From contig JAJEKV010000035.1 in NCBI GenBank assembly GCA_021234155.1, forward strand, positions 2,976,001 to 3,040,000: DNA of 64,000 nucleotides, in the 5' to 3' direction. The translations under genes and the position numbers were made by a program. Of the stretch, positions 18,180 to 59,316 are shown piece by piece. This stretch comes from Isoetes taiwanensis (Eukaryota; Streptophyta; Lycopodiopsida; Isoetales; Isoetaceae). The first letter of the stretch is position 1. Each line of letters begins with the position of its first letter. Below the pieces are notes generated by a model that saw nothing but the letters and a program-made list of their open reading frames with translations, was not told the DNA's origin and ran no database searches.

Positions 18180-18690
18180 TGAAGGCCTTTCGACTTCGCG
18201 AAGTCGAGAAAGGGTACCAAAGCTTAAAAACGCAAGTTCTAGGGGTTGAAGGCCTTTCGACTCATGAAGTCGAGAAAGGCGCCCAAGCGAAGAACGTAGG
18301 GTTTCGTGGATCAAAAGGCCTTTCGACCGCTGAGTCGAGAAAGGCGGTCAAGGCCGAAAACGCAGTTTTAGTCGGGAAGGCCTTTCTCGACTCATGAAGT
18401 CAAGAAAGGTACTCAAAACGAAAACGCAAGTTTTAGGGTTGGGAAAGGTTTTCTCGACTTCGCATGAGTCGAGAAAGGCAAACAAAAGTTTAAAAACGCA
18501 AGTTTTAGGGGTCGAGAGGCCTTTCTCGACTCGCGAAGTCGAGAAAGGCGCTCAAAGCCGTAAAACACGGGTTTTAGGGGTTGGAAGGCCTTTCTCGACT
18601 CGAAGTCGAGAAAGGCTCAAAAAAGTTCGAAAAATGCAAGTTTGAGGGCCTTTTCGACTCGCGAAGTCGAAAAAGGCGCTTCGAAAAAAA
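18180..18690. repeat. Tandem array of eight TCGAC/GTCGA hairpins, units of about 61-78 bp
   Basis: Eight units start near 18183, 18248, 18317, 18378, 18445, 18508, 18586 and 18649. Each has a stem of the form GGCCTTTCTCGACT / AGTCGAGAAAGGC around a 3-6 nt centre (often CGCGA). Stems are joined by spacers sharing ACGCAAGTTTTAGGG. Stem-changing substitutions are sometimes compensated. Reading frames through the array are repeat by-products. The array resembles in architecture, but not in sequence, the hairpin arrays at 51-58 kb. Confidence 0.9.
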
Positions 18691-18739: not shown

Positions 18740-19680
18740 CTTCAAACATCCTATGTATTTTCTATGAAAAAATACCCTCCCCATAAATTTCCTACGTATT
18801 TTCCATGAAAAATAGACCCTCCCCATTTATTATCTAATGGACACATATCCAATGGACCCTCCCCCTTTCTAATGAACCATACCATATAGCTATATGAAGA
18901 GGGGACCATTGGGCTCATATTTAGCCATATAAAGAGTAATGCCTAATGCACATGTAAATAGCAACATATGCACCTATAATACACATTATAACCTATGAGA
19001 GCCTATTAGACCTATGCATTAAATCTATTAATATGCATTAGACCTACTAATATGTACTTGTCCCCATTTTGTGACTTGAACCTTCAAAATGGGTTAAACA
19101 AGGTGTAAATTATATCATGATCTTCGCAAAGTTAAATTTTTACCTTAGAATAAGAATATATGCCTAGAAAACGTGCACCATGGGAACATATTGTTTAACG
19201 TGTGAACATAATAGCACACACATAAAAAGAGGAAATTGGGGACACGTCAAAATATAATCCTATATTATTAGCATTTATTTTACACTTTCTTTTTCAATGT
19301 ATTTTTTTACCCTTTTTTTTCTAATACCCCGCCTTTTTTCCCGCCTATGCTTGAATTTTAAAATCATTTATTTTACACTTTCTTTTTCAACGTATTATTT
19401 TACCCCTTTTTTTTCTAATACCCCGTCTTTTTTTCCCGCCCATGCTTGAATTTTAAACTTTGGTACATACCTTTGAGACAGAAGTTCATTTGTACCGCTT
19501 GGAAGAAGCTCCCAACGCCATAGCCACCGGCTTTTACTCCACCTCCGATCCAAACTCAACCCCTTAAATCCTCTGCCTTGCATCTCCATAACCCATTTCT
19601 CTGTTTCCATTTTCATCTCCCATAGCTCCGGCATGAATCCGTCGTCTCATCCCTGTTATCTTCCCAGTTCCTCTATCCCG
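18740..19680. repeat. AT-rich intergenic with 93-bp tandem duplication
   Basis: A unit starting CATTTATTTTACACTTTC at 19272 repeats at 19365, a 93-bp period, ending with a TTGAATTTTAAA tail. A weaker 43-bp duplication lies at 18750-18830. No gene was seen. Confidence 0.7.
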
Positions 19681-33229: not shown

Positions 33230-34551
33230 TCAAACATCATTCAAGTCCAAAGTGGTATACACAGGGTTACACCTCTTCTTCCATTTGGAATTGCATGGTC
33301 CAGATCGCAAATTTTGCTCAAATGCAATGCTCTTATGTAAATCTGGGTTCCTGACTGGTGTTGGTACAGGTATATGTCCCCAGACCTGATCAACAACATT
33401 ATAACTTGCTGTGAAGCTTAAACCATCTATATATATGTTAGGACCTGCAAATAAAGGTTTCAGCCGGAGCGAAAAGGGCGCAGCATAGGCTTCCAATCCC
33501 TCAAGGCAGCGAGCCCATAATTTTGGAGGCATGGTAGCTACTTTTCTCCATATGGTGCCCTTGGTTAAATATATAAGTTCCCAAATTTGAATAGATTGGG
33601 GGCAAGGATCAGACCATCCCACTGTAAAAATCCGTGTCCCAGATTTTCCCAAGTTGGGATCCAAGTATATTTTAAATTCTGGATCCGTGCTTTCGCGCTT
33701 TCTTATAAGATTGCAAGGAAGTTGAATATCACAATTCCATTTGTTGATCAAGGAATTGTAGGTAACAACATGGATCTGGTCTGCAGAAGAATTACGGAGC
33801 CGTGCTGTGCAATATATAGTGTTGTCTATCACAAAGCGAAAATTTGTTATTCCTTGCCCTATCACAACACCACTCTTGATCCATGACTCTGATCTAGAAT
33901 CATATATCATAATACAAGAATTGTTTCGCGTGCTATTGATGGTAAGAAAAATCTTGAAACTGCCATCAGTTGAAGCTTGAATACAAGAACTGCCTTGTCT
34001 TATCATGCAGTTTTTCAGTTGTAAACCTACAATCTGATAAGACTTATTTAATAGGTTAAAATGGCCACACGAAACTCGTTAAAAGGACCCTCCAAAACCA
34101 TGTAGGGACGTCTGAATGCAGCACAGCAAACAAGCCCACCATCACTTTTAAAGTGGCGCATATGCTTACCGACTTTGGAGAGAAAAGGAAGCCGAAAATC
34201 TGCCCAAATTGGAGCTTTGCTTCCTGTAAGAGCATTTGTAACAGAGGGTCTATGAACTAGAACTTTAGTTTTAGACTTACAGAGAATGAGCCAGCTTCTG
34301 TCCGCGCAGTGCTGGCTATGGCGGTGCAGAAAATCGTCAGATAGTATTCGGGATCTCCATGAATTAGAGACAAGGCACATCCTGACAAGGGCACATGTGG
34401 GCAGCCGCTGCAGTATGAGCTCCACAATTTCATCTGGGTATGCTGATCCCAAACTGAACATTTGTTCTTCATGGATTAGCTGTTGTGCTTGCTTTTCTAT
34501 AGCAATGTTCTTCCTGCTGCGGAGTGAGAAGAATCCTTTTTTGCTGGACAT
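33230..34551 (-). CDS. F-box protein with kelch/FBA-like C-terminal domain; one frameshift
   Basis: This intronless gene lies in two frames. 34551-34048 holds a basic N-terminus and the F-box (YPDEIVELILQRLPTCALVR through MCLVSNSWRSRIL, about residues 38-70). After a break in a run of four A (34058-34061, plus strand), 34006-33230 continues the substrate-binding part with kelch-like strands such as SCIMIYDSRSESWIKSG, IQIWELIY and WARCLEGLEAYA. One extra base in the A run would join both halves to about 440 residues, the usual size of plant F-box/kelch proteins (SCF ubiquitin-ligase adaptors). The rest is intact, so either a recent mutation or a homopolymer base error is likely. Layout resembles the small LCR/At5g15710-type group, but the subfamily is not certain. 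Confidence 0.85.
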
Positions 34552-49158: not shown

Positions 49159-49660
49159 AAGAAGGTATAAGCGGAAGTAATGTTATACAGAGTGTCACAG
49201 TAAAGATCATTTTCAACAGTACCACGAAACAATAATAAGGACAATGAAAGAGAATTAGGGAAAGTAGCTTTATTATGAAGCCAAAGTAACAGTTACATTG
49301 AAGGAGTGTTTTAACAAAATTTGAGACTGTACAATACAAACTAACGATTATACATTGGGCAATTTTAACGAACACACACTTAGCCATGAAAAAGGCTGAA
49401 GAGATCAGGCCTAGGCCTGCGCGAAAGGGTACAGGATGGAGTAACGGATGCTTTCCCGTACTGCCCTGACTACCTTGTAACGAGCCCATGCCTGGACGAT
49501 AACATACTGGTAATCTAACGTAGGACTAATGATGAGCAAATTAAAAAGGTCTCTCAGTGCGTAGAAGATCTGCCATAGATGATCATTTGCGTCGGCAAAA
49601 GCTTCGTACTTCGTCATATCCATTAGAGTTTTTTTGAGGTCAAATAAGGGCCCTTACCGA
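49159..49660 (-). other. Chromovirus leader with a 70-codon ORF (49623-49411)
   Basis: The DNA upstream of gag should hold the primer-binding site and 5' LTR, but neither a Met-tRNA-complementary site nor a match to the 43.2-43.8 kb LTR is visible. A minus-strand frame at 49623-49411 starts MDMTKYEAFADANDHLWQIF and has balanced composition (YRVVR-type basic end, 70 residues) without recognised homology. It could be an extra retrotransposon ORF or belong to the next region. Confidence 0.35.
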
Positions 49661-49990: not shown

Positions 49991-50308
49991 CACATTCTGA
50001 TTTGAATTCTGTGATTAGATGGCTATAAGCTCTATCGCGATCGGAAATGAGTTTAAAAGCTTCGTGGTGTCGGCCAGGGAGCTTTGTTACACTCAACCCG
50101 CAATGCGAGGTGAATGGCGAGTCAAAAGATGCGGGGAGAAATGATGTTTCGCACATTGGAAGGCTTTGGTGGTCGGATTTCGATCGGGCAAAGAGATATT
50201 TGTACAAGTAAAGCATGTATACACTCCAACAGATATGGCAAAAAAAAAAATAAGCAAGTTTAATTTAACTTTCCCACGGTTAGAAGCAAATTGTGAGTAT
50301 GCACTTCT

Positions 50309-51232
50309 ATGCAATCCATATTCAAATTAGTTCAGTTACTTATCCAGTTTATTCCTATTCTCTCAGGTTTGTGTATATCTGATGTGGAGAACACTGTCCC
50401 TTCACACTCGATAAGTAGTGTATTCCATTGCTTTCACCAAGATATGGGCTACTTGTTGTTCGAAGGTAGCACACCAGTACAGCTCAGAGAAAGGGGTATA
50501 TGGTTCTGGAGGTATGAATACTCTCCTCGAAGATCCAAGCTAACTGAGCTTCCATTGCCCAGCCTGTCCGATTTATACTGCAGGCCTCTGGATGCCACTT
50601 CTATCTTATTAGCACGAAGTAAGTTGTCGTAGGAAATGTTCACGGCATTGAAGGAGAAGGGAGGAGTCTGCGGGCATGTGAAGATAAATTTAGAAATTGA
50701 TCTGTTCATTGCCATATTCAAGAGCGCCGACAATGTAAAGAAGACCTTGAAGATGTTTACAGTTCAACAGTCGGTGGATAGTTTTTTAGATAGTGTATTT
50801 CTTGAAGGTTGGAGTGCTCGACTTCACGATGGAGCTGAATGTACTGAATGCAGGATAAGTCGAGACACGGTTCGGTTCAGATATTGCATTCGGAAGCAAA
50901 CTCTGTATGTCACTTTTAAGTATAGGAGATGGCGAAATGTCCGTGAAGGAAGAAAGTACGTATGGATTCCTGTCGAACAAGATGACAATGATGGCACTCA
51001 TTCCGTTGTCATAGACTTGAACATTCATAAGGATAATCAGCTGTTCAAAAGTCTGAGAGCGGAGAGCGAGTGGTCTCTATTCGATGTTCGGCGGCAATTA
51101 GAGTTTGAGATAGACTTAAATTTCTTCCATTTCATGATAGATTGCCAGAAGGTGGGAAAGCGCAGAGAAGAATGCTATAAATTGGGGTCATGCATGCCAC
51201 CCAAAGTTATATCTGTATATGAATCTATCTAA
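50309..51232 (+). pseudogene. Unknown 308-codon gene A of the hairpin-array cluster, one in-frame TAG
   Basis: Two same-frame stretches, 50309-50632 (107 codons) and 50636-51232 (198 codons), are split by a single TAG at 50630. Composition is ordinary and soluble, with readable blocks such as LLFEGSTPVQLRERGIWFWR, CGHVKINLEIDLFIAIF, TLYVTFKYRRWRNVREGRKY and HSVVIDLNIHKDNQLFKSL. No signal peptide, membrane segment or known motif was seen. A hairpin array begins about 70-125 bp after the stop. The lone TAG implies a recent C>T change or readthrough. No family was recognised, and origin from a large DNA virus is inferred from context only. Confidence 0.6.
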
Positions 51233-51298
51233 TATAAATATAAGTGATTGTTAATTGGAGATCTATTGTATATTAATTGCAAACATTTGCTTTCATTG

Positions 51299-51605
51299 GA
51301 ATATAAGACTTAAAGTAGCCATGTTGCGAAATTATGTACAACTCTGATTGTGGATGTGTTTTCACACCGTACTTACGGTGCGAAATTGTGGCTCTCATAA
51401 AACATGGAAGGGCCATTTTTGCACCGTAGCCACGGTGCGAAAATGTGCATAGCATAAAAAATGAAAGGGGGATTTTATGCAGCCGCAGTGCGAAATTATT
51501 CGCGCCACAATAAGATATTGAAGAGGTTGTTTTTGCGCCTGTAGCCACGATTTTTAAATGTAAATGGAAGGTATTTTACGCTTGCAAGTATGCAGTGCGA
51601 AATTA
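51299..51605. repeat. Hairpin array 1, about 57-bp units
   Basis: Five to six diverged units occur here. The best one is 51417-51442 (TTTGCACCGTAGCC / ACGGTGCGAAAA type) with spacer AATGAAAGGGGGA. Unit starts near 51359, 51416, 51473 and 51530 give periods of 56-57 bp. The GGAAGGGCC spacer element before each T-rich arm is shared with array 4. It lies downstream of gene A. Confidence 0.9.
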
Positions 51606-51793
51606 TAAATAGAATAGGTACTCCGAGAGTCTTGTTTTACTTTTCCTGCTTGCAGTCGCGGATTTGTCTATAACATAAATTGAAAGAAGTGTTCCTTTTA
51701 CAGCATACGTTGCCCGTTGTTAGTCTCCCTTGCAAATCGGTATACAAAGAAACTCACATTTTAAATTAATAATCGCCGTCGAGAAGCATTTGC

Positions 51794-52129
51794 TCACGAG
51801 AATGGCAAATAGCCCAGGTCAGATAAGGCATGGGAGCTATTTAAGCATGGTATGACAAAATAGTGGAGAAAGAAGCGGGATTTTAAAATTGAAGGCGCAT
51901 CACGAAGAAGTTGAGGAGAATAGAAGGGCGATGGATGCAACCAGCGTATATATAATATTTTACTTTTGAGCATAGACATTATGGCGAGTGTAGAGTTCTG
52001 CGATGCATATGGGCGGCATCCTTCATATGCTTCATAGGCATTTGGGCTGGTCACGGCGATAGAAACAATATCACAATAGTAGTTTGCCTTCACTAAGCAT
52101 ACAAACTTTCTTAAGATGTTCCGAAACAC
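51794..52129 (-). CDS. Hypothetical 111-residue ORF
   Basis: The frame starts MFRNILRKFVCLVKANYYCD and reads SIAVTSPNAYEAYEGCRPYA and STLAIMSMLKSKILYIRWL with plausible composition. No family was recognised. Opposite in strand to most of the cluster; it may be antisense noise. Confidence 0.25.
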   Translation of the reverse strand: MFRNILRKFVCLVKANYYCDIVSIAVTSPNAYEAYEGCRPYASQNSTLAIMSMLKSKILYIRWLHPSPFYSPQLLRDAPSILKSRFFLHYFVIPCLNSSHALSDLGYLPFS

Positions 52130-52260
52130 TGATCAAGGCCAGATGAAAGGTTCTTGAAGAAACTACTCTTGAGCTATGTCGAGCCGAAGAGAGACAAGGA
52201 AAGTTTTTACGGCCTAGATATCGTATTGACACATACATGATTTACACTAAATAAACAAAG

Positions 52261-52676
52261 ATGCAGTTCTTCTTCAAGTGCAACACACTTGAGATGCAGC
52301 TCAAATGAGCATACTGCCTCACGATGGGAAACTGATAGATCTTGAGGAAAGCTACGTCTTGGAAAGAAAATGAGAGAAGCGAGTTGTGGAAGAGGAGGTC
52401 TCAGAAAAAATTGTCTACTTGGGGCTATCGGAAGCATATCCCATCCATGTAGGTGGGAAACTATACTTGTTGTTGCCGGACATATCCAAGTGACGGGGTT
52501 GAGAGAAGGCAGATATTGGGCCATATATATGCGCATGTTGTAGGCCTGGGAGGACTTATAGACTTTGAGACTGATGTCCCCAGACAAATGATGGACCTCC
52601 AGAGGATGCATTTGAAATTGTCATGCGCAAAAGGGAAGCAGTGGTATGAAGCAATTGAAAGATGTCAAATTTGAAG
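52261..52676 (+). pseudogene. Degraded unknown gene B of the cluster
   Basis: Coding-like pieces lie in successive plus-strand frames: MQFFFKCNTLEMQLK at 52261, then DGKLIDLEESYVLERK, EEEVSEKIVYLGLSEAYPIH and GGKLYLLLPDISK up to 52492, then RQILGHIYAHVVGLGGLIDF and LQRMHLKLSCAKGKQWYEAI to the stop at 52674. At least three frameshifts or stops separate them. The opposite strand is open for 134 codons (52611-52207) but has the His/Pro/Ser-rich look of an antisense frame, so the plus-strand reading is preferred. Confidence 0.35.
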
Positions 52677-52913
52677 TCGCTAGCTCTTCAAACACCGATC
52701 CGTGTTCATAGAACGTGAGCCGTCAAGTCCTCTTTCAAAATAACAAACCCAATTTGTTGTCGTAGGGACAAGAGAGAGGTATTTATCTGGTTTCATTTTT
52801 TATTTCTTCTTGAATCGATGTTTCTTTTTATGCGGGGAGTTATTTATTGATGACTTCATTGCAAGGCATCGAGAGAGTCACCCTAGGTCGGGACGCCAAG
52901 ATGTGCACATTAT

Positions 52914-53300
52914 ATGGGCTACCTTCACAAGGAGGAAATTATTGTGTTTCACAATAAATATAGTCCATCTGGAGTACAGGAGGTCCTCAAGCTTAAAGCT
53001 CTGTCATTAGCTGGCAACCACGTGCCCCTAGCCGCAAACTATGATCGAGTGGTAGCAGTAGATAGGGCTATCACAATGTATGTCTTCGGGGGCTTCAAAA
53101 TGTACTCTGTCCTTGCAAATAAAGCAGCTCTAGGCTTGAGTGGAGCGGACAAGGAAACACGACGCTTGTCCTGTGCACAGAAGGACCCTGACATATTGTA
53201 TCTGTTAGATGCAATTGGGGCTGAAGTAAAGGAAGAGGACTTAGAAGAATTTGATTCGAGTACTCCAGGCCCTGATGCCAAGAAAAGGAAATGTACTTAA
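52914..53300 (+). CDS. Gene C of the cluster, weakly histone H2A-like
   Basis: 128 codons from ATG 52914. After an N-terminal part (KEEIIVFHNKYSPSGVQEVL), residues from NYDRVVAVDRAIT through SVLANKAA, DKETRRLSCAQKDPDILYLL can be laid on histone H2A. NY-x-RV, the AGNAA helix end, the KxTR strand and the AxRNDEEL-like helix have nearly matching spacing, but overall identity is low. The tail is acidic (EVKEEDLEEFDSS) and then basic (KKRKCT, nuclear-signal-like). AATAAA lies about 15 bp after the stop, and array 2 begins 160 bp after it. A frame at 52810 may hold an upstream piece shifted by one base. The H2A assignment is tentative. Confidence 0.4.
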   Translation: MGYLHKEEIIVFHNKYSPSGVQEVLKLKALSLAGNHVPLAANYDRVVAVDRAITMYVFGGFKMYSVLANKAALGLSGADKETRRLSCAQKDPDILYLLDAIGAEVKEEDLEEFDSSTPGPDAKKRKCT

Positions 53301-53457
53301 AAAACTTTTGTATTAATAAAATGTCTTTTCTATAATGTATCAATTATTTTCATATGACGAAATTGCTTTTGTATGAATGTTCATCTATGATATTCATTAA
53401 TTGTTAGAATTCAATGTCAGCAATAAATCATTGTTAGATGTATATGTTAGGTATTCT

Positions 53458-53650
53458 TTAATGGTGGCTACGGTGCGAAAACGGGATGTCGGCAGTTTTT
53501 GGACTGCCCGACAAGAATCGCGTGGCTACGGTGCGAAAAACGGCTGTCGGCGATTTTTGACTGCGCCTCGACCAAGAGGGCTACTGGTGGCGAAAACGGA
53601 TGCCGGCGGCGATTTTAGATCGCCCGATTTCGCACCGTGGCTACTATAAA
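53458..53650. repeat. Hairpin array 2, about 57-bp units
   Basis: Units GGCTACGGTGCGAAAACGG start at 53466, 53524 and about 53580, with a reverse-oriented TTTCGCACCGTGGCTAC at 53628. Spacers carry a second inverted repeat (TGTCGGCAG / CTGCCCGAC). It lies downstream of gene C and upstream of gene D. Confidence 0.9.
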
Positions 53651-53732
53651 CATTTTTTTAGTCTAGGGGTTTATGAGATCGGTACAGACAATATTGCTTA
53701 TTTGAATTTCTTTCCCTTGCTAAAATCCGCTC

Positions 53733-54125
53733 ATGTCCATGGAAGGCGCTAGCTCTGAAATCCCACAAAATGAGGCGCTTGACCAGCGCCAGAATGTTGA
53801 GAAGGTCGTTACTAGCAGCGCCGAGACTGCTATTACCATCACAGAAACCGAGATAGTTATTTCTATCACAAGCCAGCAGATGGACGTAGAGAATGTCCTT
53901 CCAGAAGGGTTCGGGCAAAGTCTTGGAAATGTCGTCCACACTATTAATAATAGTGTGGATGAATATTTCCAAAACCCGAACGTGATTCCTACTCGGGTCT
54001 CCTTGCTGAGCGCCGGTAATGTTGTTGGGGAAGGAGTTTTCCCGTGGAGGCCTTTATGCGCCACAATATTCTCGTTCCGCACGCATCGTATTGTGGTATC
54101 GGTGGACACGACTCCGATCCAATAG
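53733..54125 (+). pseudogene. Gene D, N-terminal part of the H3-like gene or a separate unknown gene
   Basis: 130 codons in one frame start MSMEGASSEIPQNEALDQRQ and end at TAG 54123. The same frame continues readably after it (RPSHPPSGDKRGSRFGSS, ARPFQFLCNEIDYMSKTTG, AFYTWRVFVARL) to stops at 54330 and 54354. It then runs on to a Gln/Asp-rich stretch (QGQHQIMEVQHDQH-stop) that shifts frame near 54510 into the histone-like part. So genes D and E may once have been one gene of about 460 codons, now broken by four stops and a frameshift, unless introns remove some of them. No family was recognised for this N-terminal region. Confidence 0.45.
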
Positions 54126-54487
54126 CCGATCCGCCCTTCCCACCCACCGAGCGGAGACAAGAGAGGAAGCCGCTTCGGGTCATCGTTGTTTGGTCGGGTT
54201 GATGACATCCATGTCCCGAGCGCGGAGGCACGGCCATTCCAGTTCTTGTGTAACGAGATCGATTACATGTCGAAAACCACGGGGGCCTTCTACACATGGC
54301 GTGTCTTTGTGGCAAGGTTGACCAGGCCATAGTGCCCGGTGGTCGCTGAATCGTAACCCCCGTCTATGACGTTGGGACCACCACTGCATTCCGAAATATT
54401 TGGCAGTGGTGAGGGGGAGGAACAAGTGCAAGGGCAGCACCAGATTATGGAAGTGCAGCATGACCAGCATTAGCTGGTCCAGCATGA

Positions 54488-55126
54488 TCAGCAGGATCAG
54501 CCGGACCAGGGGACCAGCATGCTCAGCAGGATCAGGTTGATCACGGGCAGGCCAGTTCCAGTGGAACAGGTACTAGGAAGCCCATTCCCCGGCGTAAGCT
54601 GAAATCCACGCCGAAGAAATCTGAGCTGGCAAAACCTCCTAAGCTTGTTCCTAGTTGGAGACAAGCTGAGAGAGATGCAGCCAAGGAGACAGATAAGCTT
54701 GAGAATAAGCGGAAGCCCAAGGAAGGGGAGCCTAGTATTAGATATGGTGGCCCTGAGAAGATAAAGGGTGCTCCTCCTGGCACTCAGGCTTTGAGGGAGA
54801 TTAGGTACTGGCAGGCACGCACCCAGCCTCTGATTCCCAAGCTTGCCTTTGCTAGAATGGTCAGGTACGAGATGCAGGCCATTATTGACAGGAGGAAGGA
54901 ATCAAGGAGGAAGAGGAGGGACAGAGCACCAGACTTCGTCCCCATGGTGGAGGAGGAGGTGAATAGAATCCAAGCAGAGGCCTTGGACATACTGCAAGAG
55001 GCAGCAGAGGCTCATCTAATTGGCCTCTCTGAGGACAGTGTCCGCTATTGTGTGCACATAGGACGTGTTACTGTGCAGAGCAGGGACTATGCCTTAGCTA
55101 GATACTTCCGTGGATGCCTCCCTTAG
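54488..55126 (+). pseudogene. Gene E, divergent histone H3-like protein
   Basis: The open frame has no upstream ATG and enters from a frameshifted Gln/Asp-rich region. A basic tail (TRKPIPRRKLKSTPKKSEL) leads to the H3 fold at 54773-55117. PPGTQALREIR corresponds to the PGTVALREIR of H3, PLIPKLAFARMVR to the LLIRKLPFQRLVR helix 1, EALDILQEAAEAHLIGLSED to helix 2, GRVTV to loop 2 and DYALARYFRG to helix 3. Between helices 1 and 2 lies an insertion of about 23 residues, mostly charged (RRKESRRKRRDRAPDF). The N-terminal K4/K9/K27 tail of canonical H3 is absent. An enlarged loop 1 occurs in CENH3, but this is far more divergent. Virus-encoded histones are known in Marseilleviridae and medusaviruses. 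Array 3 follows 130 bp after the stop. Confidence 0.8.
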
Positions 55127-55254
55127 CATCCTTTTGTAACCCTTTTTTGGTTGTTAATATATGAGTGTTTTAATATTTATCGTTATGAGTGTTTTATATT
55201 TATCTGTAATTATTTGCTATTCTATTTATTGCGGCTGTGTATTTATCTACTAGT

Positions 55255-55440
55255 GTTGACCGTGGCCACGGTGCGAAAATGACCATTCCACATTCTGTGG
55301 GAAGGTCTATTTCGCCACCGCCGCCACAAAGGCGTAAAAATAGTAGTTCCAAAGTTTTTGAGGGCGCAATTTGCGACTGCGTGACTTCTGATGCTAAAAT
55401 GCAGTATTCCACACACTGCGAAGAGAATGCTTATCTGAAT
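55255..55440. repeat. Hairpin array 3, about 57-bp units
   Basis: ACCGTGGCCACGGTGCGAAAA at 55259 is followed by GGGAAGGTCTATTTCGCCACC at 55300-55320 and a third diverged unit (CAATTTGCGACTGCG) near 55368. The spacer element GGAAGGYC is shared with arrays 1 and 4. It lies downstream of gene E. Confidence 0.85.
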
Positions 55441-55499
55441 TTAGAATCTACATGTAAGGAAAATGGCCAAGAGCTTTCCAAATTGAAAATGTGCGGTAA

Positions 55500-56410
55500 A
55501 TAGATGGATCACATGTATCACTTAGGGTTACATACTTATAACTAGCTAATGTCTGAAATGTATGGTGTAGATTAAGGAATAAGGGGTGAATATGCCTATC
55601 CAACAGCTCTCGTTGCCTGGAGTCACCCCCCGTGTGAATATGCACCCAAACCAAAGGGGGTTTAAGGGGGATTTTAATTTAAATGTGTTAGACCCAATGG
55701 TTGTGTTAATTAATGTCAATGTTTGTTAATTAATGTGTTGGTTGTTAATGTCAATGGTTGTTATGTGTTGGTTGTTGAGCCTTAGGGACGTCAACCCCCC
55801 AGGTGTGTGACACAAGTTTTAGAATTCAAATCAGTCATTTGAGGCTTTCATCTTTGAGGCTTTCATCACCTGTAGCTTTTGAATTTCATCACAATCAAAC
55901 AAATAGAACATAAGTAAAAGTTACCATAAAGATAGAGCAGATTGATCCCATTATTCTGAAAGTCATAAAGTTTGCAACACCCATACACAAACATTTTTCA
56001 ATTCGAATTTAACAGCAGCCTTTGGCCTCCATGGATTCTTGTGGTGAGAAACCAAAGTGGGAAACTTTTCTGCTTGTTAGCACAAGGATCCAGAAGCCTC
56101 AAAATCTAAAAATGCATGGTAATTTTTTGCAAGCTTCATTCAGAATGAGCCATAAAACAATATCCAATAGCGCAATCCTGTATTAATCAGCTGGTAGGAT
56201 GTGAAAGCCTACCAAACCCGGCCGAAAACTTGCTGTTTTAGCATAGATAACTTAAACCAAACATATCCATATCATAGATTATCAAAAAGATCTCGGAGAG
56301 AGCTTTCCAACGCAATAAAAATCATCTCAAACAGAGCTCTGGATCAAAAGTTATGATAAGAAATGTGTTGCCGGCGGGGAAACTGCACTACATGCGCCCT
56401 TCAAGCCCTT
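55500..56410. other. Intergenic, nothing recognised
   Basis: AT-rich, with TTGTTAATTAATGT and GGTTGTTAATGT repeats around 55700-55770. No coding signal was seen. Confidence 0.4.
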
Positions 56411-56417
56411 CATGTGC

Positions 56418-56534
56418 CCATTATGCACCACACACACAAAAAGAGGGCTTTTGTTGTGAGCCATTGGTTGTTGACCATTATGCACCACACGCACAAAAAA
56501 AAGACTTTTGTTGTGAGCCATTGGTTGTTGACCA
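56418..56534 (+). repeat. 57-bp tandem duplication
   Basis: CCATTATGCACCACAC starts at 56418 and 56475, and the copies continue through TTTTGTTGTGAGCCATTGG. The sequence is unrelated to the hairpin arrays but has the same 57-bp period. Confidence 0.85.
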
Positions 56535-56705
56535 TTGGAAAAAAAAAAGGCTAAAATCAATGGCTCAGAAATGGTGCACTCTAGATGTACGCATTAGTAC
56601 ATCCATTTGAATACATCACGAAATCATAGGAAAACCTTAGTGAAAAGCGTACAAAAACACAAAGAAAACCTCCTGTTATTATGCTACATATTGTAGTAAC
56701 AGAAT

Positions 56706-57035
56706 TTAGAACTCATATAAGAGGCATAGCATACATGAATGCAGAAGTTCATTCGCGATCGGGATCATCATGAGCAGGCAGTTGAGTGATGCGCGATTAA
56801 TCTCATAGACGCGACGCTCTGGAACCCTCCAAAGGTGGATAGCAACACGATAAAACCCGTTGGAAGAACGATTTCGACCCTCTGCTACTCCTTCCAGCCA
56901 GGGATCAAGGGGGATACCCCTCTGAGAACATCTATAAAGATCATTATATGTCATAGTGCAAGTAATGGAGTCCATATCTTCGGGACGAGGAGGCAAGGTA
57001 GACTCCCTGTAATAAGAATAACCAGGCTGAGACAT
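56706..57035 (-). CDS. Gene F, unknown 109-residue protein, divergent from gene G
   Basis: From ATG at 57035 the frame reads MSQPGYSYYRESTLPPRPED, YNDLYRCSQRGIPLDPWLEG, GFYRVAIHLWRVPERRVYEI and ends in a more hydrophobic stretch. Composition is protein-like and the frame is open for 150 codons. It is transcribed away from gene G, with about 300 bp between starts. No family was recognised. It shares the setting of the array cluster but has no hairpin array at its 3' side. Confidence 0.45.
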   Translation of the reverse strand: MSQPGYSYYRESTLPPRPEDMDSITCTMTYNDLYRCSQRGIPLDPWLEGVAEGRNRSSNGFYRVAIHLWRVPERRVYEINRASLNCLLMMIPIANELLHSCMLCLLYEF

Positions 57036-57334
57036 AGCAAATGGATGCCTTCTGCATTGAATGGAGCTGTACTTATATCGAACAAAATTATTGACATGCA
57101 CTGTAGCAGCATTATTGATTATATATACGAGCATAATGTACAAAATACACATGTACACATGTAAATAGCATATATACCTGGTTTCTCTTTAAATAGGCAT
57201 CTATGCCTTCATTGTCTTTGTCTGTTTCTTGTTTGCATGCTCCTTGCCTCCCTGTCTGCTCCTTTCTTGCATGCTCCTTGCCTCCCTGTCTGCTCCACTA
57301 GTTGTTCCTTGTCTGCTCCACTAGTTTCTTGCAA

Positions 57335-57865
57335 ATGGTAACTTTGCAAGAACATCCTCACTGGGCTGATCTGGAATACCTGCAAGCATGCGACAGAATT
57401 AATACGTGCACTTTTGATGATTTTTTTAGCAATTTTTGGGAGCATCGATGGCGTCACGGTCCAACCACAGAGCTTGCAAGGCAGCTGATCAACTTCATTA
57501 TCGATCGCGATACTCGTCATCTCGCTCCACTGCAGGAGATCAGTTCGAGTCATGCAAGGATCACTCTAAGTGCTTTGGGACTTCTTGAACCCCCCTCAGA
57601 TTTAGAAGATAGGCTAGAACAGTTGAAGGACATGCTTTTCCATGGTTTCATGGCCTACTCTCTGGATCACTATGCACCTCTGGTCATTCCTACTAGTGAA
57701 AAGAATAGGATTTATATCCTCATTGAACTTTACAACTTCCATTACAAATCTTTTGTGGATATTCCCTTGACTTCAACATCCTGTGGTTACTGTCTAAATT
57801 CCCCGACTGGGATAGAATTCCTTGGGATACACGTGACCTATGGTTACGTAGCACACAGCACATAA
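57335..57865 (+). CDS. Gene G, unknown 176-residue protein, paralogue of gene H
   Basis: ATG 57335 follows a pyrimidine-rich leader with repeated TGCTCCTTGCCTCCCTGTCT and the string TTGCAA directly before ATG. Blocks such as WEHRWRHGPTTELARQLINF, LSALGLLEPPSDLEDRLEQL and FMAYSLDHYAPL align with gene H (58.8-59.3 kb). The frame is intact. The predicted protein is soluble and helical without signal or membrane segments. Array 4 begins about 225 bp after the stop. Its family is unknown; being duplicated side by side suggests a multigene family as is common in large DNA viruses. Confidence 0.6.
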   Translation: MVTLQEHPHWADLEYLQACDRINTCTFDDFFSNFWEHRWRHGPTTELARQLINFIIDRDTRHLAPLQEISSSHARITLSALGLLEPPSDLEDRLEQLKDMLFHGFMAYSLDHYAPLVIPTSEKNRIYILIELYNFHYKSFVDIPLTSTSCGYCLNSPTGIEFLGIHVTYGYVAHST

Positions 57866-58087
57866 TACGTACATATCATAGGTAAAGATACTCCATTGGA
57901 ATATGTGTATAAACTGGTATAAAGATTTTCATAGAAATTAAGTATATAAGTAAGTGATTTCCGTGTAATTAAGTAACATCCTTATATTATCATGTATTAT
58001 CTTGGCAATCTTACACTTTTAGTGTAATGGAATGATTTCTTCTACCATTTTCCTTGTATTTTCTCATGTGAATGTTCTATTTGCGGT

Positions 58088-58275
58088 CATATTCGACACC
58101 GTGGCCACGGTGCGAAATCGCCTCAGTTACAAATTATTGAAGGGCCTATTTCGCACCGTGGCTACAGTGCGAAATACGTGTATCCAGTTTAGTTACAGGC
58201 CCATCTTTCGCACCGTAGCCACGGTGCGAAATTGACTCAGTTACAAATGATTGAAGGGCCTATTTCGCCACCACC
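58088..58275. repeat. Hairpin array 4, the best-preserved, exact 57-bp period
   Basis: Units lie at 58092-58117, 58149-58174, 58206-58231 and (truncated) 58263. Each is 26 nt with near-perfect arms TTTCGCACCGT and ACGGTGCGAAA and centre GGCC, GGCT or AGCC. Spacers share CTCAGTTACAAATTATTGAA and GGGCCTA. Period is 57 bp throughout. It lies downstream of gene G. Confidence 0.95.
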
Positions 58276-58489: not shown

Positions 58490-58800
58490 CTTTGCTAATT
58501 GATCTTGATCCTTGCTTCTTGCTCCTTCATCTTCGTGCTACTTCATGCTACTTGGTCTTGTTCCTTGCTCTTGATCTTGCTACTCGATCTTGTTCCTTGC
58601 TTCCTTGCTCCATGATCTTCCTTGTTCCTTGATCTTCTTGCTCCTTGATCTTCTTGTTCCTTGCTTCTTGCTACTTGATCTTGATCCTTGTTCCTTGCTA
58701 CTTTATCTTCCTGCTCCTTGCTACTTGGTCTTCTTCCTTGCTTCTTGCTCCTTGTTCCTTGCTCTGCTCCTTGTTCCTTGCTCCGTCGGTGATCCTTGCT
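58490..58800 (+). repeat. Pyrimidine-rich CTTGCTCCTTGATCTT repeat leader of gene H
   Basis: About 300 bp of degenerate CTTGCTCCTTGATCTTGTTC-type repeats end at TTTGCAAATG, the same junction as at the start of gene G. It may be a promoter or leader tract. Open frames on either strand are compositional. Confidence 0.7.
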
Positions 58801-58811
58801 TGCTTTTGCAA

Positions 58812-59316
58812 ATGATTGGACCCAATCCTCCCGGGCTCTGATGAGAAGGCCTCGCAAGCATGCCCCGGACATTCTGTGTGGCCTGAAACTGATGAGCTAT
58901 TTGACCATTTCTTGGAGTGGAGGTTGCACCACAGTCCCACCAAGGAGCTTGCAATAGAGTTGATCAACTTCATTCTGGAGCGATTTGATTGTGGTTATGA
59001 GCCACTAATGGAAATTAATCCATCTGAATGTTATAGGAGACTTGCAATGAGGGGAATTCTTGAACCCCCTCCTTATCTGGACGAGATGCTACAGTAGTTG
59101 AGGCCTCTTCTTCGTGCTGGTTATTTAGCACACTCTCTGGATCAATACATATCAGAGTTCATTCATGAAATTTGTAAGGGACAGATGTATGGCCTTATTA
59201 GGACGTACTACAACGAGTACAACAACTTTGTGGAGTTGGGTCCGCTCTTCTTCCGTGAGTATCATCATGTGGAATTACTTTTTCTAATGACTAGGTACCC
59301 CATATGCATGGAATAA
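58812..59316 (+). pseudogene. Gene H, broken paralogue of gene G
   Basis: From about 58816 one frame reads DELFDHFLEWRLHHSPTKEL, AIELINFILERFD and RRLAMRGILEPPPYLDEMLQ. It meets TAG at 59095 and continues in frame with LRPLLRAGYLAHSLDQYISE to a stop at 59314. Aligned with gene G, the TAG stands at a Gln (EQLKDML versus Q-stop-LRPLL), so CAG>TAG explains it. The ATG at 58812, matched to that of gene G, is out of frame with the rest, so a frameshift near the start has also occurred. Otherwise well preserved. No array is seen 3' of it before the LINE begins. Confidence 0.6.

Follow-up and report, generated by a model that had tools for sequence, protein, structure and literature searches.

Results

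Genes and hairpin arrays at the locus

We analysed a 64,000-nucleotide stretch of the genome of Isoetes taiwanensis (assembly GCA_021234155.1, contig JAJEKV010000035.1, positions 2,976,001 to 3,040,000, forward strand; hereafter the window, in whose coordinates positions are given), in which genes alternate with tandem arrays of a 57-bp hairpin unit. As a rule these arrays lie at the 3' ends of genes, and they are very probably parts of a large multi-gene DNA transposon that is bounded by terminal inverted repeats (TIRs) and has a RAG1-fold transposase.

The left TIR (49621-49652, plus strand) starts with CATTAGAG and marks the left end of the element, where homology between copies begins. Gene A follows on the plus strand (50297-51232), divided by one in-frame stop into open pieces at 50297-50632 and 50633-51232, with array 1 (51315-51610) beyond its 3' end. 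Gene C, on the same strand, extends from 52402 to 53300 by tblastn but is broken in this copy, its last open frame being 52887-53300; array 2 (53455-53653) on its 3' side is decayed and has a second, different hairpin within the spacer of each unit. The region termed D (53724-54338, plus strand, found by tblastn with the D of copy L016) also has a broken frame and lies ahead of a histone H3-like domain (54488-55126, plus strand). Array 3 (55253-55440) is 3' of both the H3-like gene and gene X (56709-57188, minus strand), and gene G (57302-57865, plus strand) is divergent from X with no array between them. The best preserved array, array 4 (58092-58275), is 3' of G, and is followed by G' (58654-59313, plus strand), a tandem relative of G in which one in-frame stop separates open pieces at 58816-59094 and 59098-59313. 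The homology of the element to its other copies ends at about 59306. Between array 3 and X there is an insertion of about 1.13 kb of unrelated DNA (55558-56689; missing at this site in L018; also in L017), which holds a different tandem repeat (56418-56536) whose period is also 57, probably by coincidence.

Sequence and structure of the arrays

A search of both strands of the 64-kb window for the 18-bp palindrome core, with at most three mismatches, gave 10 matches, none of them outside 51421-58227, whereas 100 shuffles gave none. The arrays (at about 51.31-51.61, 53.46-53.65, 55.25-55.44 and 58.09-58.28 kb) consist of the unit TTTCGCACCGT-GGCY-ACGGTGCGAAA, a 26-bp palindrome recurring every 57 bp. 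In 20 fetched stretches from the same genome and the window, 137 unit spacings were exactly 57 bp, the next most frequent being 56 bp (8) and 58 bp (5). A first-pass annotation, made from the letters of the window alone, had already recognised the four arrays and a period of about 57 bp, and both hold; the spacer motif GGAAGGGCC that it took to be common to them is not general, each junction having a spacer of its own. Across 274 units the palindrome was common to all arrays and constant from junction to junction while the spacer differed by junction. The spacer of the X-side array is identical in both families of the element (see below) despite a different neighbouring gene, and this array therefore belongs to X. 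Decay of the palindrome was mostly one-sided, often C to T or G to A, and the window arrays are themselves partly decayed: at up to seven mismatches the array at 53.46 kb retains two palindromes and that at 55.25 kb only one.

The predicted RNA folds of two window arrays were far below those of shuffled sequences (z of -8.0 for array 4, and -5.8 for array 1 over 51340-51500), and neighbouring units are able to pair with one another. The spacers had a mean of 6.65 self-complementary pairs out of 15 against 3.95 when shuffled (133 spacers; the highest of 500 shuffles was 4.33), with the consensus spacer reaching p < 0.01 in only 2 of 18 clusters, so that self-complementarity of the spacers is suggestive only.

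Placement of the arrays relative to genes

Junctions between genes were counted in 19 sources (L009-L012, L015-L028 and the window), leaving out L013 and L014 as rearranged. Arrays were present at 68 of the 75 junctions that contain a gene 3' end and at none of the 18 divergent X/G junctions. Tandem junctions (A to C, 11/11; C to H3, 9/10; G to G', 13/15; K to H3, 5/6) and convergent ones (C/X, 6/7; G'/H3, 7/8; G/K, 7/7; H3/X, 10/11) carried them alike. None was present in the 11 stretches at the outer ends, of which seven, 0.5-1.1 kb long, separate A from the left TIR and four, 0.9-1.1 kb long, separate K from the right TIR. No array unit was found inside any gene mapped in the 19 sources, and 100 kb of Markov sequence gave no sites. 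Fisher's exact test gave p = 7e-14 for this placement, with the copies being related; reckoned by kind of junction, arrays are present in all eight kinds that include a 3' end and in neither the divergent junction nor the outer ends, an outcome of 1 in 165. In most cases the array starts 80-300 bp beyond the gene end, the distance being 375-510 bp for K and more than 1 kb in four outliers. In L013 and L014 too, arrays lie between gene 3' ends, although the A match of L013 overlaps the first array by about 50 bp. Location of the arrays at gene 3' ends is thus the rule and is strongly supported.

These results bear on several expectations of the first-pass annotation. It had the arrays following the plus-strand open reading frames (ORFs) that it called A, C, E (the H3-like ORF) and G at a short distance beyond the stops and never inside an ORF, and this was borne out as to the 3' position; X, however, is a minus-strand gene within the cluster, so that the arrays are not simply placed between plus-strand genes. 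Its generalisation to an array after each gene describes most junctions; G' has no array in the window, where the homology of the element stops at about 59306, but is followed by one in other copies.

The element, its copies and its families

The assembly (1.66 Gb, 1110 contigs) contained 395 + 455 exact matches to a 22-bp palindrome pattern on its two strands, perfect palindromes being counted on both, against none for a control. The matches cluster genome-wide, frequently with several arrays per locus, and all 20 fetched stretches, from 19 clusters, carried genes of one common set with arrays between them. Among the 100 places listed of the 850 matches, a hand count tied 30 of 37 clusters to an element gene or TIR through the gene maps of the fetched stretches and the matches listed for the H3-like gene, G and the family-1 TIR; the seven untied among the matches listed were C90:253k, C246, C412, C425, C446, C512 and C907:28.95M. 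The genome held at least 151 matches to the H3-like gene and at least 154 to G (pieces included), and by such counts the element is present at well over a hundred genomic places. Scattering of arrays without relation to the genes, as in an ordinary satellite or a miniature inverted-repeat transposable element, had been named beforehand as the outcome that would speak against a role tied to them. The palindromes are indeed genome-wide but accompany the genes of the element in all fetched stretches and an element gene or TIR in most of the listed clusters, and on this basis such a repeat family was rejected.

The ends of the element were located by comparing copies. The window (at 49621), L028, L015 and L023 share a left start at CATTAGAGTTT, with a fifth copy, L022, diverging slightly inside the left TIR, while the right end is the inverse of CATTAGAGTTT in L020, L027 and L024. 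All 32 bp of the window's left TIR match, inverted, the right end of another copy, and the family-1 TIR pattern had 191 + 209 genome matches (control, 0). Convergent TIR pairs were separated by 12.3 kb (C243), 13.0 kb (C930), 13.0 kb (C937), 14.7 kb (C907) and 9.3 kb (C1001), which indicates an element of about 12-13 kb; pairs of 18-38 kb exist too, plus one of 4.5 kb. Both ends were inspected for 10 of the 13 convergent pairs of less than 40 kb among the matches listed, three of the 10 having gene maps. The 32-bp TIR was found in all 10, perfect in nine and with one mismatch in C1001, and no flanking direct repeat of at least 2 bp was seen at any of the 10, with a single matching base in two. 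The termini were CATTAGAG...CTCTAATG (5'-CA..TG-3') in 10 of 10 pairs, which had been selected by that pattern; independently of it, homology between copies stops at the same points.

Two families were distinguished, with 64-83% nucleotide identity in the shorter pieces outside a shared module. With arrowheads giving the direction of each gene, the order is A> C> D/H3> <X G> G'> <K in family 1, which includes the window, and A> C> <X G> G'> <H3 <K in family 2, where H3 is moved and inverted. The near-identical pair L013 and L014 (C222:132000-149999; 98% over 2.8 kb) has unusually long arrays and the joints A-array-A and A-array-K; it appears to be a rearranged or third family, its A differing from the A of both other families. 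Single palindromes were also noted 1.28-1.36 kb inside the TIR at C90:292453, C101:514232, C120:118433 and C907:29231732. The same distance is longer in mapped family-1 copies (1.7 kb in the window, 1.8 kb in C243), and these four copies may be a shortened non-autonomous form.

The probable transposase and accessory genes

The predicted structure of K matches the RAG1/Transib catalytic core in its fold (VIA-align), and K is likely to be the transposase of the element. In the K sequences compared, the second D is followed 20-21 residues on by CxxC in 8 of 9, and H-x4-H with an E 20 residues past the last H is present in 4 of 4; second D, CxxC, HxxxxH and E occur together only in P0048, and in none together with the first D as well. 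Relatives of K (L043 with its relatives P0044-P0064) lie on other contigs, one of 298 kb, and the K family looks wider than the Isoetes genome studied.

The remaining genes (A, C, D/H3, X, G and G') would be accessory genes, one of them encoding a histone H3 variant. The Pfam Histone profile detected the H3 fold in the window (7.1e-16), in a family-2 frame (3.4e-18) and in a second family-1 frame (2.9e-14), and the window ORF resembles H3 chains of the PDB, with an E value of 2.5e-15 for the best of them. The best database relatives are 45% identical to it across roughly half of the ORF. The canonical H3 N-terminal tail is absent; there is other sequence ahead of the fold, plus an extra loop. 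The first methionine of the ORF falls inside the histone fold, and region D is probably the N-terminal part of the H3-like protein. No Pfam family scored above cut-off for A, C, X or G, and no protein-database relative of G was found.

Between families, the proportion of synonymous differences (pS) was well above that of nonsynonymous differences (pN) for A (0.78-0.89 vs 0.24-0.40), for C in copies other than the window (0.77-0.84 vs 0.35-0.40) and for K (0.78-0.82 vs 0.20-0.26, in two overlapping pairs; pairs aligning non-overlapping pieces were left out), which reflects constraint on these proteins. Constraint was weaker for H3 (0.63-0.76 vs 0.49-0.60) and little for G and G' (ratios 0.50-0.80).

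Exchange of a gene module between families

The X-G-array-G' module was about 80-98% identical between families in 24 comparisons (three family-1 by eight family-2 copies). Near-identity begins inside the X-side array in 20 of the 24 and from 22 bp to about 300 bp past it in the other four, and stops about 20-185 bp before the G' array. These start and stop points place the boundaries of exchange in or near arrays, and we infer that recombination at the arrays caused the exchanges.

Surroundings of the element

To the left of the element, a Ty3-type retrotransposon was judged by eye from its ORFs to occupy 44.3-49.2 kb on the minus strand. To the right, beyond the end of the element homology, there is a long interspersed nuclear element with DUF4283 (Pfam), a plant domain; its ORF1 starts at about 60.1 kb. 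Both neighbours are in keeping with plant DNA. Elsewhere in the window are an F-box ORF (34051-34551, minus strand; Pfam 3e-9), probably a host gene, and tandem repeats at 18227-18616 and 19272-19457 (69-bp and 93-bp units) that are without the array palindrome.

Discussion

We propose that the main role of the arrays is two-way punctuation of gene 3' ends, as terminators or insulators, and would give this a probability of roughly 55%. Each array would serve the gene end just before it, or the 3' ends of the two convergent genes on either side, its 26-bp palindrome repeats acting as DNA or as nascent RNA to stop or process transcripts or to insulate neighbours, and seven genes within about 12 kb would thereby be kept from running into one another. 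This role is favoured because the exclusive 3' placement, a symmetry that can be used from either side and the dense packing of the genes all fit it. The best evidence against a merely frozen gene order is that the placement rule is kept in the family in which H3 has been moved and inverted.

A number of observations weigh against this proposal. The loci were picked for containing palindromes and the copies share ancestry, 7 of the 75 junctions with a 3' end have no detectable array, and the ratio of nonsynonymous to synonymous substitution rates (dN/dS) within families is mostly 0.4-0.85, as in decaying copies. The X/G gap measures 300-440 bp in nine of the 18 copies; in the other nine it is at most 71 bp, or the genes overlap by match extents. 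This leaves little room for an array there (though the outer ends do have room), and absence from X/G and the ends could mean only that promoters and TIRs do not tolerate repeats nearby. The same picture could come from tolerance or from protein binding. Compensatory pairs among the palindrome arms were not in excess and give no sign of selection on pairing as such, and the AATAAA counts upstream of the arrays, 15 in sense and 22 in antisense among 92 stretches, do not help the case. The left exchange boundary is also blurred since the palindrome is common to all arrays.

That common palindrome would offer short homologies for the exchange or movement of gene cassettes, and a role as cassette joints can follow from shared homology in addition to punctuation. 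That the arrays are primarily recombination joints for the exchange, inversion and gain of cassettes, with their 3' position secondary, appears to us unlikely. The identity of the module between families that otherwise differ, the position of its limits within arrays or close to them, the moved and inverted H3, and the joints of L013 and L014 are what such a role would produce, but the X/G junctions and the outer ends might then be expected to carry arrays too, and the right-hand change point precedes its array instead of lying within it.

We regard it as rather doubtful that the arrays are binding or chromatin sites, whether for the H3 variant that the element encodes or for another accessory protein, or hairpin sources of small RNA that silence or regulate the element. 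The strict 57-bp period, the constant palindrome and the junction-specific spacers would suit binding by a dimer, the arrays are accompanied by the H3-like gene and their hairpins are strong, but a placement restricted to 3' ends is not predicted by this by itself.

It is improbable that the arrays are functionless tandem palindromes which expanded where harmless and were kept by ancestry. The relatedness of the copies, the short X/G gap, a placement that may reflect tolerance only and the decay of the arms without compensation are consistent with this, but every kind of junction with a 3' end carries arrays in two diverged families, and mapped genes, divergent junctions and outer ends carry none.

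Some giant viruses carry a histone gene, a point in favour of a large DNA virus that became endogenous and had a hairpin rule like that of mimiviruses. This reading, put forward in the first-pass annotation, is also in line with the palindromes 3' of genes in Marseilleviridae and Mimivirus (PMC5413956), but it is now scarcely credible: the unit is bounded by TIRs and has a RAG1-fold transposase, no Pfam family of the hallmark genes of Nucleocytoviricota was found in the ORFs scanned, no close relative of A or K was found in viral contigs, and the exact palindrome had no match there. Prokaryote genomes also gave no exact match to the palindrome. The comparable selfish element that the annotation offered as its alternative is what was found. 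Homologous regions of the baculovirus type, which are tandem palindromes, were set aside once the TIRs were found.

Taking the parts together, a tentative overall picture is that of a RAG1-fold multi-gene plant transposon, moved by K, which makes no target duplication, has its own H3 variant and uses its arrays both as a two-way full stop and as cassette joints, so that the element would be a modular genome in which genes could be reordered without losing transcript ends.

If punctuation is the role of the arrays, a general 3'-end or insulator element has arisen in a DNA transposon and spread to its genes, something known to us otherwise only in viruses and bacteria. With its many natural copies, the element would then also lend itself to studying how eukaryotes stop transcription between convergent genes. 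A RAG1-fold transposase beside a histone variant in a plant, with no target-site duplication seen, bears on the diversification of RAG/CACTA-type transposases, and the element bears on the question of why mobile DNA carries a chromatin protein of its own.

Comparison with known systems

The element works like a DNA transposon of the CMCT type. It shares with that clade a transposase of the DDE type whose C(2)C and H(3-4)H motifs fall between the second D and the last E, a RAG1-like fold and, as in most CMCT cases, 5'-CA..TG-3' termini; certain members also have accessory genes such as TET/JBP. The seven genes including a histone H3 variant and the hairpin arrays at gene 3' ends are features of the present element. 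With Transib and the RAG-like (RAGL) transposons it shares the fold of the RAG1 catalytic core and convergent genes between TIRs (PMC7204232, in the parts available), but no RAG2-like gene was recognised in it and its TIR starts with CATTAGAG, unlike those of Transib/RAGL. Since neither the 2-5 bp target-site duplication of CMCT elements nor the 5-bp duplication described for RAG-like elements in the available parts of PMC7204232 was seen at the 10 TIR pairs, we have not filed the element in either group.

The hairpin rule of Mimivirus and Marseilleviridae, as given in the accessible text of PMC5413956, likewise sets palindromes after stop codons regardless of the orientation of the next gene; the viral hairpins are 3' hairpins of mRNAs, whereas here they are tandem 57-bp arrays in a transposon. 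Bacterial repetitive extragenic palindromic sequences and bacterial interspersed mosaic elements (REP/BIME) are similarly short, regularly spaced intergenic palindromes with proposed roles that include termination, but they are bacterial and genome-wide, according to the portions seen of PMC2817692 and PMC3733652, and not confined within one eukaryotic element.

In the literature accessible to our search, which mostly excludes subscription papers, we recognised no paper on this element or on a transposon whose genes are each followed by a tandem hairpin array. A fungal hAT transposon has likewise raised histone H3 to high copy number; by the available part of that report (PMC6710886) it captured a housekeeping H3, whereas the H3 of the present element is, in both families, a divergent variant extended at its N terminus. 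Within the limits of these sources, amplification of H3 by a transposon and hairpins at the ends of viral mRNAs are known, while neither the combination of features in one element nor arrays placed after the genes of a transposon was found.

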